From contig JAQVFR010000034.1 of assembly GCA_028697145.1 (NCBI GenBank), positions 1 to 39,609 on the forward strand: 39,609 nucleotides of DNA, read 5' to 3'. The notes below the pieces were generated by a model. It searched no databases. It saw nothing but the letters and a program-made list of their open reading frames with translations, and was not told where the DNA came from. Below, in pieces: positions 12,534 through 37,495 of the stretch. Source of the DNA: Actinomycetota bacterium (lineage in GTDB: Bacteria; Actinomycetota; Geothermincolia; Geothermincolales; RBG-13-55-18). The translations under genes and the position numbers were made by a program. Position 1 is the first letter of the stretch; the number at the start of each line of letters is the position of its first letter.

Positions 12534-14240
12534 TCAGCCGCCGGTTTCCTCGCCGCCCTCCGCCTCGGTCTCCGTGCCGACCTCCGCGGGCTGCAGGGCG
12601 CTCTCCGTAAAGGTGCAGTTGGGGTCCCAGAGTAGCCACTCGTTGACGCCCAGCTCGTAACAGGCCCTGATCTGCGCCTGCACCTCCGCCGGGCCGTAGG
12701 TCAGGCGCAGCGAGAAGTCCTGCAGCCACGGGCGCAGTTTGCAGGGCGTCCCCTCCAGTTTCTTCTGGAAATCCACCAGGCTCATGTACACGGTGTCGTG
12801 GGGGTTCGCCTCCGGGTCCCCGATATCGTACTCGCCCGCGTTATAGTGTGATGGGTACACCATGGGGCAGATGTAGTCGAGGTACATGCCCATGGCGCTC
12901 ACATCCTGCCCGATACCCATATCGCCCTGGCCGGATGCGGTGAGGCCGAAGACGTCCGCCGAAAGGACGATGCCCATGGGCTTCAGGGCGTCGCGCATGA
13001 ACTGCAGGAAGTCCTGGATCACCTGCGACTTGGTACGCGTATCGCTCCCCTGGGCGGGGAACACGCAAGTGGAGGTATTACCGTCCGAGGGAAACCGCAC
13101 GTAATCGAGCTGGATCTCCTTGAACCCCTTGCGGGCTGCCTCCACCGCGATCCCCAGCATGTAGTCCCAGTTCTCCCGGCTGTAGGGGTCGAGCCATTTT
13201 CCGTCGCCCCACAGCCCTCCCCCCGTGCTGTGCACCGCCAGATCCGGCCGCTTGGAGGAGACGACCGGGTCCTTGAAGCAGACGATACGGGCTATGGTGT
13301 AGATGTCGTTGTACCAGCACTTGTCCATCACCTTGTCGATATCCATACCACCCGCGTTCAGGGGGCTTCCGACCTCTACCCCCAGGGGTACCTGGCTGTT
13401 GTATCCGATTCTCCCGCTCTCGTCCTTGACGTCGATCTGCATGCCGTTGAGCTCGGTCCTGGCAACAAGGTCGGCCATCTGTTTGAAGAGGGTGCGGTCC
13501 GCCGCCACCCATATGGAGACGTGCGTGCCCTTGATCTGGGGGGGCGGGGAGGTATCCAGCAGCAGCTCGCGCCGGTTGCCGGCCGCGTCCACCGCCGCGA
13601 GGGTGACCGTTGTGCGCTGGAAACGGTCCACCTCCACCTGGAAGGTCCCATCGGGGTTCGGCTCGAGCCTCTTGTCGTCGACCATGAGGAGGTCCGAGCC
13701 CTCGACGTACCCCCTGATCACGGTGATGCCGTCATCGCGCAACTCCCATTCGTCTACGCGCACTATGGGGGGGGTGTTGTCCACGATGAAGCGCGAGTAT
13801 ATCTCCACCTTATCGCCGACCATCACCTCGACGAAGTGCTCGCCGTCGGCCAGGTCCACGTCCATGCTGAGCACCGAGGACGCGATGCTGGCCTGGTCCG
13901 TGTGGTCCTCACCGTCGATCATGACCTTGACCGCGGCCGAGTCCACGTTCTCCCTGAGCAAGGTCTCGATATGGACGGGCAGGCCGGACACCTGTGAGCC
14001 GTCCTCCGGCGATATGGAGCTTGCCGCGGGAGAGCCCAGGAGGATGACGAGCATCACGATGAGGAAGATGGCGCTTCCCAGTCCCACCAGGGCCCAGACG
14101 GCGCGCGAGGTCAACCTCACCTTGCGGCGGCGCATACGCGGCTGTGCGCGGGCGCCGGTGATCTTGCCACGCGGGGCGACCCGCGACCGCCAGCGGCGGC
14201 GGGAAAAGATCCGCTTATCGCTCCTGGGATAATAGGCCAC
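12534..14240 (-). CDS. membrane-anchored DUF4015 glycoside hydrolase-like protein
   Basis: 568 residues. A long basic cytoplasmic N-terminus leads to one membrane helix (about 48-70). Residues 75-220 look like two Ig-like or bacterial surface repeats (SPEDGSQVSG..., DNTPPIVRV...). The C-terminal part (about 235-545) has the DUF4015 TIM-barrel pattern: GTHVSIWVAADR, GMQIDVKDESGRIGYNS, YTIARIVCFKDP, EIQLDYVRFPSDG, LSADVFGL, YICPMVYPSHY and WLLWDPN. This family is placed near glycoside hydrolases but its substrate is unknown; an envelope or exopolysaccharide target is likely. The GTG start has a ribosome-binding-like AAAGGAGG only about 38 bases upstream, so the start is uncertain. It follows the deacetylase gene by 45 bases, probably in one operon. 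Confidence 0.82.
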   Translation of the reverse strand: MAYYPRSDKRIFSRRRWRSRVAPRGKITGARAQPRMRRRKVRLTSRAVWALVGLGSAIFLIVMLVILLGSPAASSISPEDGSQVSGLPVHIETLLRENVDSAAVKVMIDGEDHTDQASIASSVLSMDVDLADGEHFVEVMVGDKVEIYSRFIVDNTPPIVRVDEWELRDDGITVIRGYVEGSDLLMVDDKRLEPNPDGTFQVEVDRFQRTTVTLAAVDAAGNRRELLLDTSPPPQIKGTHVSIWVAADRTLFKQMADLVARTELNGMQIDVKDESGRIGYNSQVPLGVEVGSPLNAGGMDIDKVMDKCWYNDIYTIARIVCFKDPVVSSKRPDLAVHSTGGGLWGDGKWLDPYSRENWDYMLGIAVEAARKGFKEIQLDYVRFPSDGNTSTCVFPAQGSDTRTKSQVIQDFLQFMRDALKPMGIVLSADVFGLTASGQGDMGIGQDVSAMGMYLDYICPMVYPSHYNAGEYDIGDPEANPHDTVYMSLVDFQKKLEGTPCKLRPWLQDFSLRLTYGPAEVQAQIRACYELGVNEWLLWDPNCTFTESALQPAEVGTETEAEGGEETGG

Positions 14241-14285: not shown

Positions 14286-15371
14286 CTAGTAAGCCTTTAG
14301 TTCCTTATCGCCGAGTTTACTATGATCTACCCTGTCGATCATGTGCTTGGGCACGGTAACCACGTCGGGATTGCCGTCGCTGCAATAGCGCCGCTCCGGG
14401 TTCTCCATGAAGTACTGTATCCAGGCATAGATGCCTGAGTCGCCGGTGTCGAGCGAGGGATCGAGGGCCTGCACGCGCGGAAGGCGCAAGGGGTCAAAGG
14501 AGTAATCGCAGGGCGCGGGGGCCGGATTGGCTCCCACCAGTAGCGAGGCCATGAACCTTACCTCTATGCCGTCGTATGAACCTCCGGTGAAGATCGCCGG
14601 GTTCTTCGGCTCGGCTCCGTAGGGAAGGGCGATGCTTGACTGCTCATATTCCGGGAGATATTCCCGGATGAGGCTGATATGGCCGGTCAACTCCTTGAGG
14701 GCTTCCTGGTCGTCAAGCTCGCTCAGGTTGGCATGGTTCGCGGTGTGATTCCCGATATCGTATCCGTTCTCGACCAGATAGGTCAGCTTGTCCTGGATGT
14801 ATTCATCCTGCCCGAAAATGTTGGAGAGGACGTAGAAGGTCGCGGTGACGTTGAAATCGGGGTAATCCCGGTCGAACTGCTCCATCACGCCCACGGCGCA
14901 GCGCGGGTCTATGACCGTCTTTCCGTCCTGCTCGATGTAACGGAACTGGCTGGGATCGGAATCGTCGAAGGTGATCACCACTGGCGTGTAGCCCGCCTCA
15001 ACGTCGATATCGTTGCTGACGAAGTCGTCCAGTCCCACGCAGCGGTAGCCCTCTTCGTACAGGAACTCCAGGTCGGCACGGAAATTCTCCGGGGTGCGCG
15101 ACCACCTCCCCTCCTCGGCGATCTTATGGTACTCGAGCACCATGACCGCGCCCAGCTCGTTTACCTTGAGGTTGTTGAGTTCGCCCTCGTTCAGGGCTCC
15201 GATAACGGAGACGGTTTCCTCGAAACCTCCTCCCCCGCAAGAGAGGGCGGAGATGAGGATGACGGTCAATACCAGAAGGGCCAGTGAGCCCACCAGTACG
15301 TAGAAACGGCGGGTGAACCTGGTCCTGCGTTGCGGCCGTCTTCTCGCCAGTCTTTCCGCATTTTCCGTCAT
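14286..15371 (-). CDS. membrane-anchored polysaccharide deacetylase
   Basis: 361 residues from the ATG at 15371, which has GAGG seven bases upstream. A basic N-terminus is followed by a membrane helix (about 23-44) and SCGGGG. The NodB-type domain carries the motif-1 TFDD (134-137, with the catalytic and metal-binding Asp pair) and HTANH (209-213, metal-binding histidines). The family removes N- or O-acetyl groups from polysaccharides, commonly peptidoglycan, chitin-like or biofilm polymers, outside the membrane. Next to it in the same direction lies the DUF4015 glycosidase-like gene, so the pair may modify the same surface polymer. The Cys after the helix does not form a strict lipobox. Confidence 0.85.
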   Translation of the reverse strand: MTENAERLARRRPQRRTRFTRRFYVLVGSLALLVLTVILISALSCGGGGFEETVSVIGALNEGELNNLKVNELGAVMVLEYHKIAEEGRWSRTPENFRADLEFLYEEGYRCVGLDDFVSNDIDVEAGYTPVVITFDDSDPSQFRYIEQDGKTVIDPRCAVGVMEQFDRDYPDFNVTATFYVLSNIFGQDEYIQDKLTYLVENGYDIGNHTANHANLSELDDQEALKELTGHISLIREYLPEYEQSSIALPYGAEPKNPAIFTGGSYDGIEVRFMASLLVGANPAPAPCDYSFDPLRLPRVQALDPSLDTGDSGIYAWIQYFMENPERRYCSDGNPDVVTVPKHMIDRVDHSKLGDKELKAY

Positions 15372-15435
15372 GATAATCCTCGCTTCCCGATGCCGTCTCA
15401 CCGGCAGAAGGACCTGCCGTAATAATCCAGCATAA

Positions 15436-15441
15436 AGTGTA
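15436..15441 (-). promoter_or_regulatory. candidate -10 box for the deacetylase operon
   Basis: On the minus strand TGCTACACT fits an extended -10 (TGnTACACT) about 65 bases before the deacetylase ATG. An almost identical word, GTGCTACACTTAATG, occurs at 23008-23022 upstream of the DUF2342 gene. Confidence 0.35.
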
Positions 15442-15579
15442 GCACTCGCCAGGTCCGCCTCCAATGACATACGGCAGGAGGGCATCTCCCGCCAGCCCCG
15501 GCATGGGGCTCACGGCCCCTATCAGTAGACATTCTTTGCACGTGCCGGGGTTCCCTTTTCAGCTCGCGGCGCCGACCCC

Positions 15580-17317: not shown

Positions 17318-17392
17318 GGGGATGTAGCTCAGTGGGAGAGCACCTGCCTTGCAAGCAGGGGGTCGGCGGTTCGAATCCGCTCATCTCCACCA
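17318..17392 (+). tRNA. tRNA-Ala (TGC)
   Basis: A 75-base cloverleaf. The acceptor arm is GGGGATG pairing with CATCTCC, with discriminator A and an encoded CCA. The D-arm is GCTC..GAGC. The anticodon stem is CCTGC/GCAGG with loop CTTGCAA, so the anticodon is TGC (17350-17352). The T-arm contains GGTTCGAATCC. It lies between a plus-strand thiolase gene and minus-strand DUF2229 genes, and no integrase is next to it. Confidence 0.97.
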
Positions 17393-19798: not shown

Positions 19799-20521
19799 AT
19801 GGCCAGAAGGACAATGGTTTTCGCGCTCGTGGCGGCGGTCGCCTTGCTGTTCCCGTGCCTGCCCGCATATGCCCAGGAAGAGCAGCCGGTTCAACCCGTG
19901 GAGGAAGAGGCGCCATCGCCCGGAGGTATCTATCTCTACCTGGATGGCGAACCGGCGCGGGTGCCGCGGGACATAACCGGTGGTAACCAGATGATAGAGT
20001 TCGCCCTGCTCGAGCTCCTGAAGGGGCCTACGGACGAAGAAAAGGCCGCCGGCTACGCAACCTATATCCCCGAAGGCGTGAAGCTGCAATATACCACGGT
20101 AAAACAGGACCGCAGCGAGTTCAGCGTCAACCTCTCCCGCGAGCTCCTGCAGCTCTCGGGCGACACGGACGCCTCCACGAAGGCCCTCACCCAGATCGTG
20201 AAGACGGCACAGGAAGTATCGGGGATCACGAGCATCGGGATAACCGTGGCCGGGGAGGGCATGGGAGATCAGCCCCAGGACGCCTTTGAGGCCCTGGGGG
20301 TGGAAAGGGGCGAGGCCGGCGCCGGGGGCCAGGAAGAGGCCACGCAGGAGGAAGGCGGCAATACGGGACTCGTACTGGGGATAGTGTTCGGCATCCTTGG
20401 GGCCGTGCTGCTGGCCGCAGTAGCTTTCCTACTCATCAGGAGACGCAAGTCGGCGGCGCACAAGGCGCCGGCGAAAAGAACGCCCGGCAAGGCATCCGGC
20501 GGAAAAAAGACGGGGAAATGA
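19799..20521 (+). CDS. GerMN-domain membrane protein
   Basis: 240 residues. An N-terminal signal peptide (about 1-25, cleavage near AYAQ) is followed by a GerMN domain (about 40-155: IYLYLDGEPARVPR, IEFALLELLKGPTDEEKA, YIPEGVKLQ, VNLSRELL). A Glu-rich linker then leads to a membrane helix (about 193-215) and a basic tail, so the domain faces outward. GerMN domains occur in germination and sporulation proteins and in actinobacterial LpqB-like envelope proteins; the role here is not known and does not imply sporulation. The ATG follows AAGGAC. Its TGA overlaps the ATG of the M28-like gene (ATGA), so the two are coupled. Confidence 0.82.
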   Translation: MARRTMVFALVAAVALLFPCLPAYAQEEQPVQPVEEEAPSPGGIYLYLDGEPARVPRDITGGNQMIEFALLELLKGPTDEEKAAGYATYIPEGVKLQYTTVKQDRSEFSVNLSRELLQLSGDTDASTKALTQIVKTAQEVSGITSIGITVAGEGMGDQPQDAFEALGVERGEAGAGGQEEATQEEGGNTGLVLGIVFGILGAVLLAAVAFLLIRRRKSAAHKAPAKRTPGKASGGKKTGK

Positions 20522-21510
20522 GACGATCCCGGCTCCTGCTGGCCGCGGCTTTGCTCCCGCTCCTGCTGGCGGGGGCCGGATGCGGCGCCTCGCAGGTCCC
20601 GGCCGAAAAGGACCCTTTCCTCGTCTCCCTGGCGGAAATGGTGGATACCTCACGCATGATGCAGACAATAGAGTATATGGCGGGCGATGAGCTGCGAGGG
20701 CGCCCCTCCGGGTCCGAGCAATCACGTGAGCTGGAGGATCATCTCGAGGAGTCGCTGGCCGGGCTCGGGCTGGACCCCCTTGACGAGCTCGGACTGGAGG
20801 GTTACCGGCAGGAGTTCCCGGTCCCGCCGGAGAGGTGCTTCCTCGAGAGCCCGCCTCCCGCGGAAACGTTGTTGACCTGCGCCAACGTCCTGGCCAAGCT
20901 GCCAGGCGCGTCCTCCGGCGAGATGGTCATCCTCACCGCTAATTACGACGGGATGGGAGTGGACACCTCCAGCGGGGACATCTATCCGGGCGCGGACTAT
21001 AACGCCTCCGGGACCAGCGCCGTCCTGGAGCTCGCCCGCATCTTCTCTTCCCTCGGTCATGAGCCGGCGAAGACGCTGGTCTTCGCGTTCCTCGGCGCCG
21101 AGGAGTGCGGCGGATACGGCGCCGACGCCCTCGCGGAGGCCCTGGAGAGCGGCGGACTCCGCGACGGCGTGCACATCATAAACATCGAGGGCATCGGGGC
21201 GGGGGGCGGGGACTATATGGATGTCTGGGACCTCAATTATCGCAAGAACCGGCCCGTGGTGGCGGCCCTGGATGAAGCCGCCTCGCTGCTGGAGGTGGAG
21301 GTGGAGCTGGGGGGCGCCGATCCCGGCACCTCCGCCGCCTTTTTCTACCTCTATCACATGCCGGCGGTGACTTGCGACTGGTCGTGGTTCGAGCGCGATG
21401 AGCACCCCGACTTTCACCTGCCCAGCGATACGCCCGACAGGATAGACCGCGAAGGCCTGCTGCGGGTGACGCAGGTGGTCGCCGTCACCGCCTGGACCCT
21501 GGCGCAATAG
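20518..21510 (+). CDS. M28-family peptidase-like lipoprotein with altered metal site
   Basis: 330 residues. Lipoprotein-like signal with Cys22 (LLLAGAGC, a loose lipobox). The M28 fold is recognisable: YMAGDELRGRPSGS, then ILTANYDG, YPGADYNASG, LVFAFLGAEECGGYG and FHLPSDTPDRID. In active M28 enzymes two zinc ions are held by His, Asp, Glu, Asp/Glu and His. Here the first His is Asn142, the bridging Asp before NxSG is Tyr161 and the later Asp is Glu224; Glu195/196 and His300 are kept. Normal two-zinc aminopeptidase activity is therefore doubtful. It starts inside the stop of the GerMN gene, so the two likely act together at the outer face of the membrane. Confidence 0.8.
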   Translation: MRRSRLLLAAALLPLLLAGAGCGASQVPAEKDPFLVSLAEMVDTSRMMQTIEYMAGDELRGRPSGSEQSRELEDHLEESLAGLGLDPLDELGLEGYRQEFPVPPERCFLESPPPAETLLTCANVLAKLPGASSGEMVILTANYDGMGVDTSSGDIYPGADYNASGTSAVLELARIFSSLGHEPAKTLVFAFLGAEECGGYGADALAEALESGGLRDGVHIINIEGIGAGGGDYMDVWDLNYRKNRPVVAALDEAASLLEVEVELGGADPGTSAAFFYLYHMPAVTCDWSWFERDEHPDFHLPSDTPDRIDREGLLRVTQVVAVTAWTLAQ

Positions 21511-29168: not shown

Positions 29169-29255
29169 TGGTGGGCGAGGCGGGACTCGAACCCGCATGC
29201 CCATACGAGCACTGGACCCTGAACCCAGCGCGTCTACCAATTCCGCCACTCGCCC
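29169..29255 (-). tRNA. tRNA-Leu (CAG)
   Basis: An 87-base class II tRNA with a long variable arm. The acceptor GGGCGAG pairs with CTCGCCC, with discriminator A and an encoded CCA. The anticodon stem CTGGG/TCCAG closes the loop TTCAGGG, giving anticodon CAG (29221-29219). The T-arm contains GGTTCGAGTCC. The variable arm is TGCTCG..GGGCA-like. No integrase is adjacent. Confidence 0.97.
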
Positions 29256-31326: not shown

Positions 31327-32796
31327 TCAATAATAAATCCATTCGAAACGCGAGCGGCGGTCCGCCCAGCCCACGAGCCGTTCCAGCAGGGGGCGGCGCC
31401 AGCTCCAGGGCAGCCGCTCCGTTTCGATGAGCGCGTCCAGCGCCTTCGACATCGCCTCTCCAGCCGCGCCTGCCTCGAACAGGCGGGAATAAAGCTCCGT
31501 AAGGGGGTAGAACTTCTCCTTGGCGAACCCGTATGCGGGAGCGCGGAAGGCGGGGATGTCCAGGGCGCTGCGGCCGTCGAAGATGGTGTCCACGTGGCGC
31601 CCGCTCAGGTACCCCTTCTCCTCGCAATACTCGTAGAGCCTCGTATTGGGATAGGGATGATAAGTCGACACCTGCATGCAGTGGGGGCGGCAGCGCGCGT
31701 TTATCCTGATGGAGTCAAGGAGGGCCGGCAGGTCCTCGTCCGGCAGGGCGGTCATGTTGGTGGAAACGGTCTTGATGCCGTGTTCCCTGCACAGGCGGAA
31801 GGCCCGCACGATGTCGTCATTCGACATGTGGCGGCCCAGGACCCTTTTCCTTATGACCTCGTTACCGCTCTCGATGCCCATACAGATCACCGAGCAGCCG
31901 GCCTCGGCGAAGAGCCGCACCGTTTCCTCGTCCAGCACGTTCACGCGGGAATTACAGATAAACGGGAGGTCTACCTCGTCACGATAGCGCGATACCAGGT
32001 CCCTGAACCAGTCCGGATCGAGGGTGAGGATGTCGTCGTCGAAACGGATGTAACGCAGCTTGCCTTGCGTGTCGGCGGAGACGATCTCGTCAACCTCGCG
32101 CATGACGTTATCCACGCTGCGGAAACGCACGTACTTCCTGCGGTTGGGGTAGATGCTGCGCTGCACGTGGTTGGAGCAGTAGGTGCAGCTGTACGGGCAG
32201 CCCCGCGAGGCCATGAGGGTGCCGCGCTCGTGCTGCTGCTCGCAGAAATCGTCCGGGTCGAATATCTCCCGGTCGGGCAGGGGGAGGGTATCCAGGTCCT
32301 CGACGAGGGGACGCACCTGGTTGCGCTTTATCTCATCGCCCTCACGCACCCACAGCGAGGGGATCCCCGACGGGTCCCTCCCCTCCTCCAGCGCCGCGCA
32401 GAGCTCCGCCAGGGCCTCTTCCCCCTCTCCCAGGCATATGGCATCCAGCGGCGCTCCCTCCAGGGCCCCAAGGGGATCGATGGTGGGGTGGGCGCCGCCG
32501 CAGATGGTATAGATATCCAAATCATCCTTTATCCACTCCAGCCACTTTCGTACGTGCGGGAACATGTGGGTGGTGCTGGAGACCGCCAGGAGGTCCGGCG
32601 ATTCCTCCGACACCCTCGCCATGAGTGCGTCCCGGTCGAGGGGCCGTACCATGTGGATGAGGGAGGTGCGGTGTCCCTCGCGCTTGAGGAAGGCGGAAAG
32701 ATAACCTATGCCGAGGTATATACGGCCCTCGGGGAGAAACCGCTCCTCGTCGTAGGAGAAAAAATCCGGGTAAAGGAAAGTAACCTTGATGCCCAA
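31327..32796 (-). CDS. B12-binding-type radical SAM protein
   Basis: 489 residues from a TTG with AAGGAGG four bases upstream. The N-terminal part (about 1-170) follows the cobalamin-binding Rossmann pattern with GYLSAFLKREGH, TICGGAHPTIDP and LGEGEEAL, though the classical DxHxxG motif is not obvious. The radical SAM core has CPYSCTYC (Cys200, 204, 207), binding the 4Fe-4S cluster that cleaves SAM. C-terminal helices follow. Such B12-radical SAM enzymes methylate or rearrange unreactive carbons of lipids, tetrapyrroles or antibiotics; the substrate is unknown. The gene follows the geranylgeranyl-reductase-type flavoprotein after nine bases, so the two probably modify the same isoprenoid or lipid. 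Confidence 0.85.
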   Translation of the reverse strand: MGIKVTFLYPDFFSYDEERFLPEGRIYLGIGYLSAFLKREGHRTSLIHMVRPLDRDALMARVSEESPDLLAVSSTTHMFPHVRKWLEWIKDDLDIYTICGGAHPTIDPLGALEGAPLDAICLGEGEEALAELCAALEEGRDPSGIPSLWVREGDEIKRNQVRPLVEDLDTLPLPDREIFDPDDFCEQQHERGTLMASRGCPYSCTYCSNHVQRSIYPNRRKYVRFRSVDNVMREVDEIVSADTQGKLRYIRFDDDILTLDPDWFRDLVSRYRDEVDLPFICNSRVNVLDEETVRLFAEAGCSVICMGIESGNEVIRKRVLGRHMSNDDIVRAFRLCREHGIKTVSTNMTALPDEDLPALLDSIRINARCRPHCMQVSTYHPYPNTRLYEYCEEKGYLSGRHVDTIFDGRSALDIPAFRAPAYGFAKEKFYPLTELYSRLFEAGAAGEAMSKALDALIETERLPWSWRRPLLERLVGWADRRSRFEWIYY

Positions 32797-32805
32797 GCGC
32801 CCTCC

Positions 32806-33987
32806 TTACGGCGGATAGTCGGAACGCCGGCAGTTCATCAGGAAACGTCCCATCTTGTCCCCGAGGCCGTGCAGCCTTGAGGTGATGAAGAGCAGGGGAT
32901 TGATGAAGCAGGGGTTGTTGCCGTAGCGGATGGCATAGGTGCCCAGGAAAAAGTAACGGCGGTAATACCATTCCAGGATGCGGGGATAGTTCTCGAGAAG
33001 GCTCTCGTCGCCGCTGTGCATGGCGGCGGCAAGCGTCTCTCCGGCCCAGCGGCCACTCTCCAGGGCATAGGTTATCCCCTCCCCGCTTATGGGGTTGGTG
33101 AGGGAAGCGGCGTCTCCCACCAGAAGCACGTTACGGCAGCGGGGGACGGCGCCGCCCATGCCCACGCGCAGCATGGCTCCGCGCAACCTTCCCCGCGGTT
33201 CCGCTCCTCGAAGCTTGGCGGCGGCATGGCGGGTGCGTGAGAGGAAATCCTCGAAGGCGCGGTTGAGGTTGATCCTGCGCTTGTGCCGGGCGTAGAGCAT
33301 GTAACCCACCCCTACGTTGGCCGTTTCCTCATCCACGGGGAAGATCCAGCCGCAGCTGGGGCTTATCGCGTCTTCCGGGTATATCTCCAGGAAGTCCGAT
33401 ATCCCCTTTACCCCGGCCATATAACAGCGCACCGACACTCCCAGGTAGAGGGGGTCGCTGCGCAGAAGGCCGAGTTCCTTGCCGATTGTGGAGGACGGCC
33501 CGTCGGCCCCCACGATGAACCGGCCTTCCAGTATCTTTTTCTCGCCGCCGCATTCGGCGGCCACGCCGGGAAAGCGCCCTCCCCGCGGCGGCAGCACCCC
33601 GGTCACCCTGCAGCCCTGCATCACCTCTGCGCCCAATCCATCCGCCCGGGCGAGGAGGATGGCGTCGAGTTCGCGGCGGGGGATGACGTATCCATGGTCG
33701 GGATAACGGCTGCCCATGGGATAACTCACCTCCGTGAGCCCGCCATGGGTGGCGTAGAAACGGATGCCCTCGGTGCGCTTGAACCGGCCTTGCAGCTCGT
33801 CGCGGAGGCCGAGACGGTACAGGGAATGCACCGCGCGCGGCGCTATGCCGTCCCCGCATACCTTCTCGCGTGGAAAGTGCTCCTTGTCGATGAGGAGGAC
33901 CCGGAAGCCCCGCTCCGCCAAGCTGCAGGCAGCCGAGCTGCCTCCGGGGCCGGCGCCGACTATGATCACGTCGTAGCGCTCATTCAT
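32806..33987 (-). CDS. geranylgeranyl reductase-family FAD oxidoreductase
   Basis: 393 residues. FAD-binding motif VIIVGAGPGGSSAA (about 7-20), a second motif VCGDGIAPRA (about 43-52), YVIPRRELD, GADGPSS and the GDAASLTNPISGEGI motif near 287 match the geranylgeranyl reductase family, which saturates isoprenoid chains of lipids, quinones or chlorophyll-type molecules. No membrane helix is obvious; such enzymes are peripheral at membranes. The start ATG lies seven bases after a -10 box and no ribosome binding site is seen. The gene leads a two-gene operon with the radical SAM gene. Targets could be menaquinone or membrane lipids, but this is inference. Confidence 0.88.
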   Translation of the reverse strand: MNERYDVIIVGAGPGGSSAACSLAERGFRVLLIDKEHFPREKVCGDGIAPRAVHSLYRLGLRDELQGRFKRTEGIRFYATHGGLTEVSYPMGSRYPDHGYVIPRRELDAILLARADGLGAEVMQGCRVTGVLPPRGGRFPGVAAECGGEKKILEGRFIVGADGPSSTIGKELGLLRSDPLYLGVSVRCYMAGVKGISDFLEIYPEDAISPSCGWIFPVDEETANVGVGYMLYARHKRRINLNRAFEDFLSRTRHAAAKLRGAEPRGRLRGAMLRVGMGGAVPRCRNVLLVGDAASLTNPISGEGITYALESGRWAGETLAAAMHSGDESLLENYPRILEWYYRRYFFLGTYAIRYGNNPCFINPLLFITSRLHGLGDKMGRFLMNCRRSDYPP

Positions 33988-34038: not shown

Positions 34039-35859
34039 CTAATCCGGCGTGCGGCCTATGAAGATGCGCACGTTGTAGCCGGCGTCGACCATGGACCCCG
34101 GCAGTGGGACCTGGTCCATCACCTTACCCACCTCGGTGGGATTGGTGGTGTCCTGCGGGATGACCGTATAGCTCAAGTCGGCATCAGTGAGGATGGTCTT
34201 GGCTTCCTCCTCCGTCTTCGTCCTCACGTCGGGAACCTCCACGACCTCGACCCCGGTGCTGATCCAGATGGTCACGACGCCCCCCTCCAGCGCCTTCTGG
34301 TTGGCGAGAGGGCTTTGGCGGATGACGTAGCCCTCCTCCACTTCCGAACTGGGTTCCTCCAACACCTCCACCTGGAAGCCGGCGTCCTTGAGCTTCTTTT
34401 CCGCGTTCTCCCTGGAATCTCCCACTACTTCAGGCACCGCGACCCTTTTCTGCTCCACCCCCACCTCCAGCTTTACGCTGGTGTTGAGCGATATGAGCCG
34501 CCCTGCCGCGGGTGACTGGGAGAGGACCGTATTGGCCTTGTCCTCGTCATCGACGGGAACGTTCTGTATCTCGATCACCGAAACGCCCGCATCCTTGAGG
34601 GCGTTCTCCGCCTCGGCGCGGGACATGCCCACGACCTCGGGCATCCTCAACTCCCGGGTAACGGTTACGTTCACCTTTTCTCCCCTGGCGAGCATGGTTC
34701 CCCATTCAGGGTCCTGGGAGACGACGATTCCCGCCTCCTCCTCTTCTTCCTCTATGTACTGGTACCCGACCTCGCCCAACTGCAGCCCCAGGCCCTCGAG
34801 GACGCTTTTCGCCTGTGCCTCCGTCATCCCCTGCAGGTTGGGCACCTCGGTCTTTCCCCCACCGCCCCCCAGGACCAGGGCCAGGACCACGGCCGTGACC
34901 ACGAGGACCAGGGCGGCCGCCGCGGCGATCCACGGCCACCGGCGCCCCGACTTTGCCGCGGGTACGGCCGCCGCGGTGCCGGCCAGGCCCGCTTCCGGGA
35001 GAACGGGGGTCGCGGAAACCGGCATGCCCTCCAGAAAACGAAGCAGGTCCGCCTTCATCTCCTGGGCGTTCTGAAAGCGGTTGGCGGGGTTTTTCGACAT
35101 GGCCTTCATCACGATGGCCTCCAGCGTCGCCGGTATCTCGGGGTCGATGACCGACGGGGGCATGGGGTCTTCCCGCACCTGCTTGTAGGTAATGGTCACC
35201 GGGTTGGGGTCATCGAAGGGGATCTGGCCCGTGAGCATCTCGTACAGGACGACGCCGAGGGAGTAGATATCGGACCTCCCGTCCACCGCCAGCCCCTGGG
35301 CCTGTTCCGGGGAGATATACTGGGGCGTCCCCATCACCATGCCCGTCTGCGTTATGCCCCCGCCGTTGCCCTCCCTGGCTATCCCGAAGTCCATCACCTT
35401 CACCAGTCCGCTGTCGGTGATGAATATGTTGTGGGGCTTGATATCGCGGTGTACCAGGTTACCGCGGTGGGCGAACTGCAGCGCCGCGCACACCTCGGCG
35501 GCGATCTCCGCCGCTCTTTCCGGGAGGAGCCGGCCCTCGGAGCGCAGGATCTCCTTGAGGTCTCTCCCCTCCACATACTCCATGACTATGTAATAAAGGT
35601 CGCCCTCGTTCCTCCAGTCGTATACGTTTCCCCAGTCATAGATATTCACGATGTTGGGGTGGTTGAGGTTGGCCGCGGCCTGGGCCTCGTGCCTGAACCT
35701 CTGGATGAAGGCCGGGTCGGCGGCGTATTGGGGGTGCAGCACCTTGACCGCCACCTCCCTGCCCAGTTGAAGGTCGTCGGCGAGATAGACATCGGCCATC
35801 CCCCCGCTGCCGAGCTTCTCCTTCAGGCGATAGCGCTCGCCCAGGACCTTGCCGAGCAT
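34039..35859 (-). CDS. pknB: PknB-type Ser/Thr kinase with four PASTA repeats
   Basis: 606 residues from the ATG at 35859, which has AGAGGGGG just upstream; an in-frame ATG at 35880 adds seven residues. The kinase domain is complete: GSGGMADVYLA, VAVKVL (Lys), HRDIKPHN (catalytic Asp), DFGIA and SPEQ. A basic-hydrophobic region gives a membrane helix (about 310-335). Four external PASTA repeats follow (about 343-606), each with V/MPxV/L and SQxP-type cores. These kinases sense peptidoglycan or lipid II through PASTA repeats and phosphorylate cell-division and cell-wall proteins. The gene follows the pseudokinase gene in the same direction, with 275 bases between. Confidence 0.94.
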   Translation of the reverse strand: MLGKVLGERYRLKEKLGSGGMADVYLADDLQLGREVAVKVLHPQYAADPAFIQRFRHEAQAAANLNHPNIVNIYDWGNVYDWRNEGDLYYIVMEYVEGRDLKEILRSEGRLLPERAAEIAAEVCAALQFAHRGNLVHRDIKPHNIFITDSGLVKVMDFGIAREGNGGGITQTGMVMGTPQYISPEQAQGLAVDGRSDIYSLGVVLYEMLTGQIPFDDPNPVTITYKQVREDPMPPSVIDPEIPATLEAIVMKAMSKNPANRFQNAQEMKADLLRFLEGMPVSATPVLPEAGLAGTAAAVPAAKSGRRWPWIAAAAALVLVVTAVVLALVLGGGGGKTEVPNLQGMTEAQAKSVLEGLGLQLGEVGYQYIEEEEEEAGIVVSQDPEWGTMLARGEKVNVTVTRELRMPEVVGMSRAEAENALKDAGVSVIEIQNVPVDDEDKANTVLSQSPAAGRLISLNTSVKLEVGVEQKRVAVPEVVGDSRENAEKKLKDAGFQVEVLEEPSSEVEEGYVIRQSPLANQKALEGGVVTIWISTGVEVVEVPDVRTKTEEEAKTILTDADLSYTVIPQDTTNPTEVGKVMDQVPLPGSMVDAGYNVRIFIGRTPD

Positions 35860-36133
35860 CGAACCCCCTCTATCCGACATGAAGCTTTCTCTCCCTCACT
35901 CTGGACGCGTCCGTTGCCTTCCGGCCGCACGCCGCGCGCGGCGCTTCGCGCATGCGAACCGGCACACGGGGGCGTGCGCGCCTCGCTGCGCCGGATAGCG
36001 CGTAGATATTCAGGTCATTCGTATTCTTCAATGGCCTTCGCTCCAACTCCTTCCGGGCTGCTTCGGGAACCCTCCCAGAAATGTTTTGAGGGGCCTCGCG
36101 CGGGCATGGTTCCCGGTCCTGCGGCAAGGGGGG

Positions 36134-37495
36134 TCAGGGGCTCGAGGTCCCCTCGCTGACCACCATGTCGACTGAGTCACCGCTGGATAGCTTGGACCCG
36201 TAGGGCGGATCGGTCTCCACCACGCGGCCGTCGCTGTATCCTGGCACCTCGCGGTAGACGACTTCGCCTACCTTGAACCCCCTCGTCTCCAGCACGACCC
36301 GCGCATCCTCCAGGCTCAGGCCGATCAGGTTGGGAACGGTCAGCGGACCCAGGCTCTCGAGTACCTTGATCACGGTCTTCTTTTTCACCATCACGCCCAC
36401 CTCTGGGTCCTGGGAGATGATGTAATTCGCCCTTACGTCCGCGTCGTGCTCCCTGCCCATCACCAGCAACCCCAGATCGCGTTCCCCTGCCAGTTTCGAC
36501 GCCTCCTCGGTGCTCATGTTGACCAGGTTGGGTACCTCGACCTTGCTCTCGGTTATCACCGTTGAGAGGATCCAGACCAGGAGGAAGATCGCCGCTACGA
36601 CCAGGAAGGAAACCCCCGCCCAGATCTGCCAGCGCTTGAGGCGCGGGACGGGTATGCGGGCGGGTAACGCCTCCTCCGCCCGCGGCATGGCGGCGGGCGC
36701 CGCATCAGGAGCCAGTTCCGGAATGGCCACCATCGGCTGCTCCTCCCGCAGGGTTGAGACCACCTCCCTGAGCAACTGCTCGCTCGTGGGGAAACCGCCG
36801 CCACCCGAGCTGTCGAGGCAGTCCTGGACCAGCTTGCGGAAACGTACCGGCACCTGTTCGTCCCATGCCAGCCTGCCCGCCTTGATGTCCTGCGATGCCT
36901 CGGCCTTGCTCTTTCCCGTCATGGAGCGGTACAGCAGGTAACCCAGGCCACGTATATCTCTCCTCGCATCCCGGGAAAGGGGCTGCGGGCTCGCTCCGGC
37001 GCCCAGCAGCGTCGGGAATCCCGCGTCGGACACCTTGGCCTTGCGGCCCGGGAAGATAAACACGTGCCTCTCGTCAAGCGAGCCATGCACGACGCCTTGT
37101 TCGTGGAGATAGGCGAGCAGCCTGGCCATCTCCAGGGCGAAGTAGAGCGCCCCGACCGGTTTCATCTTCTTCCTGGTCTCGAGCAGCTCGTGCAGCGTCT
37201 TCTCCTCGACGATCTCCATGGTCACGAAGGGCCTGCCCTCCTCGATGCCGTAATCGGAGACCTCGACCATGGAGGGATGGCGCAGGCGGGTGGCGCGGTG
37301 GGCGGCGGAGCGGAAAGCGTCGCAGAACTCGCGGTCGGAAAGCAGGTGCGGCAGGGGCAGCTTGACCGCCACTTCCACCTCCTCGAGCAGATCGAAGGCA
37401 CGAAAGACCTCTACCGTCCGCCCGACCGCTATCCTCTCGTCGAGGCGATAGCGCCTTCTCAGGACCCTGCCCTTCCAGTCCATCAACCGGTCCAT
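36134..37495 (-). CDS. PASTA-domain pseudokinase
   Basis: 453 residues. The kinase-like domain (1-250) keeps the VAVK lysine (Lys45) but not the other catalytic parts. The glycine loop reads IAVGRTVEV. The HRDIKPHN loop reads HGSLDERH (137-144), so the catalytic Asp, Lys and Asn are Ser139, Asp141 and His144. DFG is DAG (157-159). A membrane helix (about 290-313) is followed by two PASTA repeats (about 318-385 and 386-450). It therefore probably cannot transfer phosphate, but could bind nucleotides or partners and the same cell-wall ligand as PknB. The frame is intact. The ATG follows GGAGG. It lies directly upstream of the active kinase gene, so it may regulate or scaffold it. Confidence 0.88.
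   Translation of the reverse strand: MDRLMDWKGRVLRRRYRLDERIAVGRTVEVFRAFDLLEEVEVAVKLPLPHLLSDREFCDAFRSAAHRATRLRHPSMVEVSDYGIEEGRPFVTMEIVEEKTLHELLETRKKMKPVGALYFALEMARLLAYLHEQGVVHGSLDERHVFIFPGRKAKVSDAGFPTLLGAGASPQPLSRDARRDIRGLGYLLYRSMTGKSKAEASQDIKAGRLAWDEQVPVRFRKLVQDCLDSSGGGGFPTSEQLLREVVSTLREEQPMVAIPELAPDAAPAAMPRAEEALPARIPVPRLKRWQIWAGVSFLVVAAIFLLVWILSTVITESKVEVPNLVNMSTEEASKLAGERDLGLLVMGREHDADVRANYIISQDPEVGVMVKKKTVIKVLESLGPLTVPNLIGLSLEDARVVLETRGFKVGEVVYREVPGYSDGRVVETDPPYGSKLSSGDSVDMVVSEGTSSP

Follow-up and report, generated by a model that had tools for sequence, protein, structure and literature searches.

The window analysed here is a stretch of 39,609 nucleotides from an Actinomycetota bacterium (contig JAQVFR010000034.1), in which two adjacent reverse-strand genes encode proteins related to PASTA kinases. 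PASTA kinases control wall growth in Gram-positive bacteria. The upstream gene, for which we use the name psk (gene and protein alike), encodes a probable PASTA pseudokinase, and the downstream gene, pknB, an intact PASTA kinase. A sequence-only reading of the same DNA had proposed that the first protein may control or scaffold the second; the coordinates and reading frames that it gave for both genes were correct. The features of the locus are:

36134..37495, (-): psk, the PASTA pseudokinase gene, 453 amino acids
36731..37471, (-): pseudokinase domain of psk, amino acids 9-255 (Pfam, AlphaFold2, nearest solved structures)
36551..36634, (-): membrane helix of psk, amino acids 288-315 (AlphaFold2)
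36347..36544, (-): PASTA repeat 1 of psk, amino acids 318-383 (Pfam, AlphaFold2)
36155..36343, (-): PASTA repeat 2 of psk, amino acids 385-447 (Pfam, AlphaFold2)
35881..36133, (-): gap between psk and pknB, 253 bp
34039..35880, (-): pknB, the intact PASTA kinase gene, 613 amino acids
35026..35853, (-): active-type kinase domain of PknB, with HRDxKPxN, DFG and GTPQYISPE (Pfam, alignment)
34054..34848, (-): four PASTA repeats of PknB (Pfam)

The Pfam Pkinase match in psk is partial (amino acids 16-167, 42.7 bits, cut-off 31.7) and is accompanied by two PASTA repeats. AlphaFold2, run with the orthologue alignment as input, gave a model (mean predicted local distance difference test score, pLDDT, 83) with a confident kinase fold of two lobes, a single membrane helix and a pair of PASTA domains; confidence is low at amino acids 163-172, where the activation segment would be expected, and in the juxtamembrane stretch. 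Of the solved structures, the kinase domains of Mycobacterium tuberculosis PknB and PknA come nearest. The overall build of kinase domain, membrane helix and extracellular PASTA repeats is that of Stk1/PknB; against the equivalog model for that family (NF033483) psk scores 190.6 bits, under the curated cut-off of 450, and the PknB of the window 631 bits. The latter also has a full Pkinase match (177 bits) with HRDxKPxN, DFG and GTxxYxSPE all present, in agreement with its earlier description as a complete PknB with four PASTA repeats.

The active site of psk was compared across 16 full-length orthologues (13 copies in family f1 and three distant orthologues in families f2 and f3) and with 26 PknB sequences. 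All 16 have lost the alpha-C glutamate, the HRD arginine (now glycine), the loop lysine (aspartate in the window copy) and the activation segment including GTxxYxSPE. The HRD aspartate position is occupied by serine in 13, asparagine in two and aspartate in one (L054), the loop asparagine is gone in 15/16 (histidine in the window copy), and the HRD histidine is present throughout. Three stretches of the window copy are of particular relevance:

37361..37363, (-): Lys45, the ATP-binding lysine of VAVK, retained in 15/16 (alignment)
37064..37087, (-): catalytic loop HGSLDERH, amino acids 137-144, in place of HRDIKPHN, degenerate yet conserved
37013..37030, (-): SDAGFP, amino acids 156-161, in place of MDFGIA

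The analysis bore out the substitutions of the HRD aspartate by serine, the loop lysine by aspartate and the loop asparagine by histidine that had been read from the window alone, as well as the retention of Lys45, the single membrane helix and the two PASTA repeats. Two of the losses claimed there were only partial: the first and third glycines of the glycine loop are indeed missing but the middle one (G25) is kept in 14/16, and the change of DFG to DAG removes the phenylalanine but leaves Asp157 and Gly159, which are invariant (16/16). The loss of the alpha-C glutamate and of the HRD arginine and the deletion of the activation segment had not been noted. The sequence-only reading had suggested looking at the lost residues in orthologues, an intact HRD/DFG set being what would speak against it; the catalytic residues proved to be lost across the orthologues and such a set occurs in 0/16. 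The nearest exception is L054, from Candidatus Geothermincola secundus (on one contig with L070), which retains the beta-3 lysine, the HRD aspartate and the DxG aspartate and lacks the alpha-C glutamate, the HRD arginine, the metal-binding asparagine and the activation segment, its loop lysine being replaced by arginine. With serine for the HRD aspartate and the kinase fold kept in the AlphaFold2 model, psk falls within the usual definition of a pseudokinase (at least one of the beta-3 lysine, HRD aspartate and DFG aspartate replaced, fold kept), and on the alignment this assignment is well supported; the deletion of the activation segment is a stronger sign of degeneracy than the change in DFG.

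The stretch from the changed catalytic loop through SDxGFP nevertheless has the highest share of invariant residues in psk (57%). Together with the retention of Lys45, Asp157 and Gly159 this could mean that nucleotide binding, or catalysis of a different reaction, persists in the altered site; the pseudokinases SelO and SidJ, with their other transferase activities, are a precedent (PMC12599244). We consider this improbable, as the alpha-C glutamate, the asparagine that is the second metal ligand, two of the three glycine-loop glycines and the activation segment are gone, and the loop varies outside f1 (HGNL, HGDI). A more specific version, in which Lys45, Asp157 and the fixed HGSLDERH...SDxGFP loop form a rebuilt site serving other chemistry or nucleotide or ligand sensing, is highly improbable; if it were true, psk would be a wall receptor beside PknB whose kinase fold does something besides phosphotransfer.

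Full-length psk was found in 16/18 of the genomes searched from the uncultured order Candidatus Geothermincolales. The named relatives are Candidatus Solincola and Candidatus Geothermincola of the class Candidatus Geothermincolia, all of them represented by metagenome-assembled genomes only. In the 17th genome (G003) the gene is split across two contig ends, and in the 18th (G008, 62% complete) only fragments were seen. A profile search found psk in 0/13 of the other genomes of the class, each of which gave one match at E 1e-50, namely its PknB; the profile scores were 574-782 bits for psk in the order versus 224-263 for these genomes. Among 396 genomes sampled from the phylum, with four candidates scored per genome, only members of Candidatus Geothermincolales passed E 1e-80, and a search of plasmids gave no close relative. 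Firmicutes loci that the genome scan had brought up (L071-L081) were discarded as relatives of the pseudokinase, the PASTA kinases that caused them to be picked having intact HRD and DFG.

Within f1 (mean identities for this family are given throughout) the psk N-lobe is 82% identical, the C-lobe 66%, the juxtamembrane stretch 39%, the membrane helix 57% and the two PASTA repeats 78% and 81%. The corresponding values for PknB are 91%, 90%, 44% and 60%, and 73, 62, 73 and 53% for its four PASTA repeats, which are therefore less conserved than those of psk. The juxtamembrane stretch is the least conserved part of psk, with no invariant residue. Pairwise dN/dS (ratio of nonsynonymous to synonymous substitution rates) lies between 0.09 and 0.19 over the full gene, and between 0.06 and 0.16 in the N-lobe. 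From the region identities, dN/dS and the share of invariant residues, three parts of psk are therefore held by selection: the N-lobe, the former active site and the PASTA repeats. As the frame and its substitutions recur in 16 genomes with dN/dS of about 0.1-0.2, psk is evidently not a chance open frame, and the open frames and dN/dS likewise rule out a decay product or a sequencing error. The kinase domain of psk forms one clade (support 100/99) on a long branch of the tree, which might be taken for the mark of a decaying, functionless duplicate of PknB or PknA; with the frame intact in 16 genomes and PASTA repeats that have diverged less than those of PknB, that explanation is barely credible and is already contradicted by the selection data. 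The maintenance of psk by selection suggests instead a non-enzymatic partner in the control of cell-wall growth.

The usual gene order in Candidatus Geothermincolales is FhaA-FhaB-PstP-RodA-PbpA-psk-PknB, and next to PknB come genes for a geranylgeranyl-reductase-like and a radical-SAM protein. Actinobacteria have the gene order pbpA-pknA-pknB. psk, between PbpA and PknB, occupies the pknA slot, since the cluster matches the actinobacterial one in which pknA and pknB are grouped with rodA, pbpA and FHA genes (PMC3989709). In two genomes elsewhere in the phylum (L108 and L116) this slot holds a kinase with intact HRD and DFG, and in others PknB comes right after PbpA. Outside the order, genomes of the class have one PknB and no psk; where the locus was read in the other families of the class (L119-L123), no kinase gene accompanies FhaA-FhaB-PstP-RodA-PbpA, and PknB is found at another place (about 30 kb from the wall cluster in two genomes, and beside a rubrerythrin gene in one that was checked). 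Wherever a contig of the order shows the junction, the gene right after psk is PknB, or else a second dead paralogue with PknB behind it. This holds in the genus of the window as well, where the pair has stayed together and is parted from PbpA by an AMP-ligase gene (L039; window and L118), to which the sister genome G001 adds one further gene between PbpA and psk. In the genome of the window itself FhaA-FhaB-PstP-RodA-PbpA is found near the end of another contig (C36, L118).

The second dead paralogue is a degenerate PASTA kinase lying between psk and PknB in G001 and G002, the two sister genomes from the genus of the window (L039:6817-8406(-) and L040:5106-6650(+)). It has HGG for HRD, and DVG, and retains the alpha-C glutamate, the asparagine and the activation segment; nested within PknB in the tree, it is a recent copy of PknB, independent of psk. 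It is not present in the window, and a remnant sought in the psk-pknB gap there gave no significant match.

The position of psk beside PbpA in most genomes, and the strong conservation of its PASTA repeats, would also be expected of a wall-bound anchor, in which the repeats hold psk where the wall is growing while its kinase fold docks PbpA or RodA independently of PknB kinase activity, in the way that the pseudokinase YukC/EssB acts as a scaffold (PMC12599244). In the genus of the window, however, psk was parted from PbpA and remained with PknB, and we regard such an anchor as quite unlikely. The presence of FhaA and FhaB genes in the same cluster fits a phospho-scaffold in the manner of MviN, in which PknB would phosphorylate psk and the phosphothreonine would recruit FhaA or FhaB, tethering or restraining RodA, PbpA or lipid II flipping. 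MviN itself binds FhaA once PknB has phosphorylated it (PMC12599244), and the MurJ frame of the genome, at 613 amino acids, leaves no room for an extra pseudokinase domain, a place that psk could fill. The MviN site, however, is in the C-terminal tail past the kinase domain, and its counterpart in psk is the poorly conserved juxtamembrane stretch, in which a threonine or serine conserved across f1 was sought and none found; the only cytosolic threonines kept in all 13 f1 copies, T27 and T100, lie inside the fold. Such a scaffold is a possible role for psk, though an unlikely one.

Directly downstream of pknB (window 31327-33987 (-)) are the FAD-dependent geranylgeranyl-reductase-like gene and the radical-SAM/B12-binding gene, which hold this position in most family members. 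Elsewhere the window carries genes for a putative glycosyl hydrolase (DUF4015; 12534-14240 (-)), a putative polysaccharide deacetylase (14286-15485 (-)) and a putative M28 peptidase (20518-21510 (+)), and Rfam identified two tRNA genes (17318-17389 (+) and 29172-29255 (-)) and no other RNA family of that database.

Descent of psk from PknA and descent from PknB are both compatible with the sequence comparisons. In approximately unbiased (AU) tests neither the grouping of psk with the PknB of the order (p-AU 0.40) nor that with the pknA-slot kinases (p-AU 0.20) was rejected, and among solved structures the psk profile matched M. tuberculosis PknA best (119 bits), with PknB at 110.

In the reading that we prefer, psk acts as a co-receptor without catalytic function and pairs with PknB. 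Its extracellular PASTA repeats would bind the same kind of wall ligand as those of PknB, or the PASTA rod of PknB itself; inside, its N-lobe would dock onto the PknB kinase domain and thereby set whether PknB is silent or autophosphorylates. What PknB signals to the FHA proteins, RodA and PbpA would then depend on the psk-PknB pair, not just on homodimers of PknB. In favour of such a co-receptor are the adjacency to PknB, the keeping of the pair when the cluster broke, the co-occurrence in the order, and selection on the N-lobe and PASTA repeats, and dimerization through the N-lobe is known to activate PknB allosterically (PMC3601408, PMC12189002). The build of psk, the loss of its catalytic set, its conservation across the order, its pknA-slot position beside PknB and the selection on N-lobe, catalytic loop and PASTA repeats are observed; that it binds PknB, what its ligand is and which way the effect runs are the parts that we infer. 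The N-lobe dimer of M. tuberculosis PknB contains an Arg-Asp salt bridge (numbered Arg9 and Asp75 in PMC3372466), and Leu33 is in the dimer interface, where the mutants L33D and L33E have been crystallized (PMC8541300). The equivalent positions in psk are:

37451..37453, (-): Arg15, equivalent of M. tuberculosis PknB Arg10 (dimer salt bridge), 16/16 (alignment)
37253..37255, (-): Asp81, equivalent of PknB Asp76 (dimer salt bridge), 16/16 (alignment)
37382..37384, (-): Glu38, equivalent of the PknB interface residue Leu33 (alignment)

Both salt-bridge residues are retained in psk despite the loss of the catalytic set, which also favours the co-receptor. Several observations weigh against the co-receptor. 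The equivalents of Arg15 and Asp81 are also conserved in nearly all related active kinases, and their retention may reflect the fold alone. Position 38 is glutamate in 13/13 of f1 and leucine in 3/3 of f2 and f3, and leucine or methionine in all the other kinases of the set; because Glu38 of f1 sits where Leu33 was replaced in L33D and L33E, it should work against psk homodimers built like those of PknB, and it is doubtful that psk simply repeats the PknB homodimer. The conservation of the catalytic loop is not explained by an N-lobe interface, and co-transcription of psk and pknB is not certain, given gaps of 87-560 bp across orthologues; no terminator-like site was found in the gap of the window. 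Taking both sides together, we judge that the co-receptor reading has about an even chance of being right. Within it we lean slightly towards a heterodimer that takes the place of PknB homodimers or limits them, and activation and inhibition of PknB by psk seem close to equally likely. The proposal that psk controls or scaffolds PknB accordingly finds indirect support, from adjacency, the kept pair and the conserved N-lobe and PASTA repeats, and its simplest version is the part that the glutamate of f1 speaks against.

Whether ligand-driven dimerization is the switch of PASTA kinases is still debated (PMC3601408), and an order with a natural, catalytically dead PASTA receptor alongside PknB would separate ligand binding and partner contact from catalysis. 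The slot that holds an active PknA in other Actinomycetota would here be taken by a dead kinase. Receptor pseudokinase pairs in animals, for example those of HER3, are comparable to psk-PknB.

Among known systems, Stk1/PknB (NF033483) shares with psk the kinase fold, the membrane helix, the extracellular PASTA repeats and the place in the FhaA-FhaB-PstP-RodA-PbpA cluster, but psk has lost the catalytic set and activation segment and has two PASTA repeats to the four of its neighbour. PknA of Actinomycetota has the place between PbpA and PknB in common with psk; the pknA-slot kinases L108 and L116 differ from it in their intact HRD and DFG. CD2148 of Clostridioides difficile is likewise a second Hanks-type protein beside a PASTA kinase, with aspartate and asparagine changed to serine and no SPE, but it lacks PASTA repeats and comes from a monocistronic gene that is not transcribed together with prkC (PMC9674922). 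YukC/EssB resembles psk as a membrane pseudokinase with a shortened activation loop (PMC12599244); it is part of type VII secretion and is not known with PASTA repeats. ActPs3, represented by MviN of M. tuberculosis, has degraded motifs and a deleted activation segment, is membrane-bound and is tied to wall synthesis and PknB (PMC12599244). MviN is, however, fused to a lipid II flippase, which psk is not, and psk has PASTA repeats; psk keeps the VAVK lysine and the DxG aspartate, whereas MviN has VALT and is without DFG (PMC12599244). At the positions of the MviN interface residues L750 and D793, psk has the aspartate in 16/16 and the leucine in 3/3 of f2/f3, but glutamate in 13/13 of f1. psk was not placed in ActPs3, with which it shares the activation-loop deletion but not the degradation of all three motifs (VAVK and DxG are kept), nor in ActPs1 (all three catalytic residues substituted, often with PQQ), as Lys45 and Asp157 are kept and Pfam finds no PQQ, nor in ActPs2 (beta-3 lysine to arginine, HRD to HRN and a long activation-loop insertion), as the lysine is kept in 15/16, HRD is HGS and the segment is deleted. 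No PASTA pseudokinase was found in a literature search that was without most subscription papers and without any preprints, so that an earlier description may exist. A 2025 review distinguishes seven families of bacterial pseudokinases, none described there with PASTA repeats (PMC12599244), and psk would represent a PASTA-bearing class outside them.

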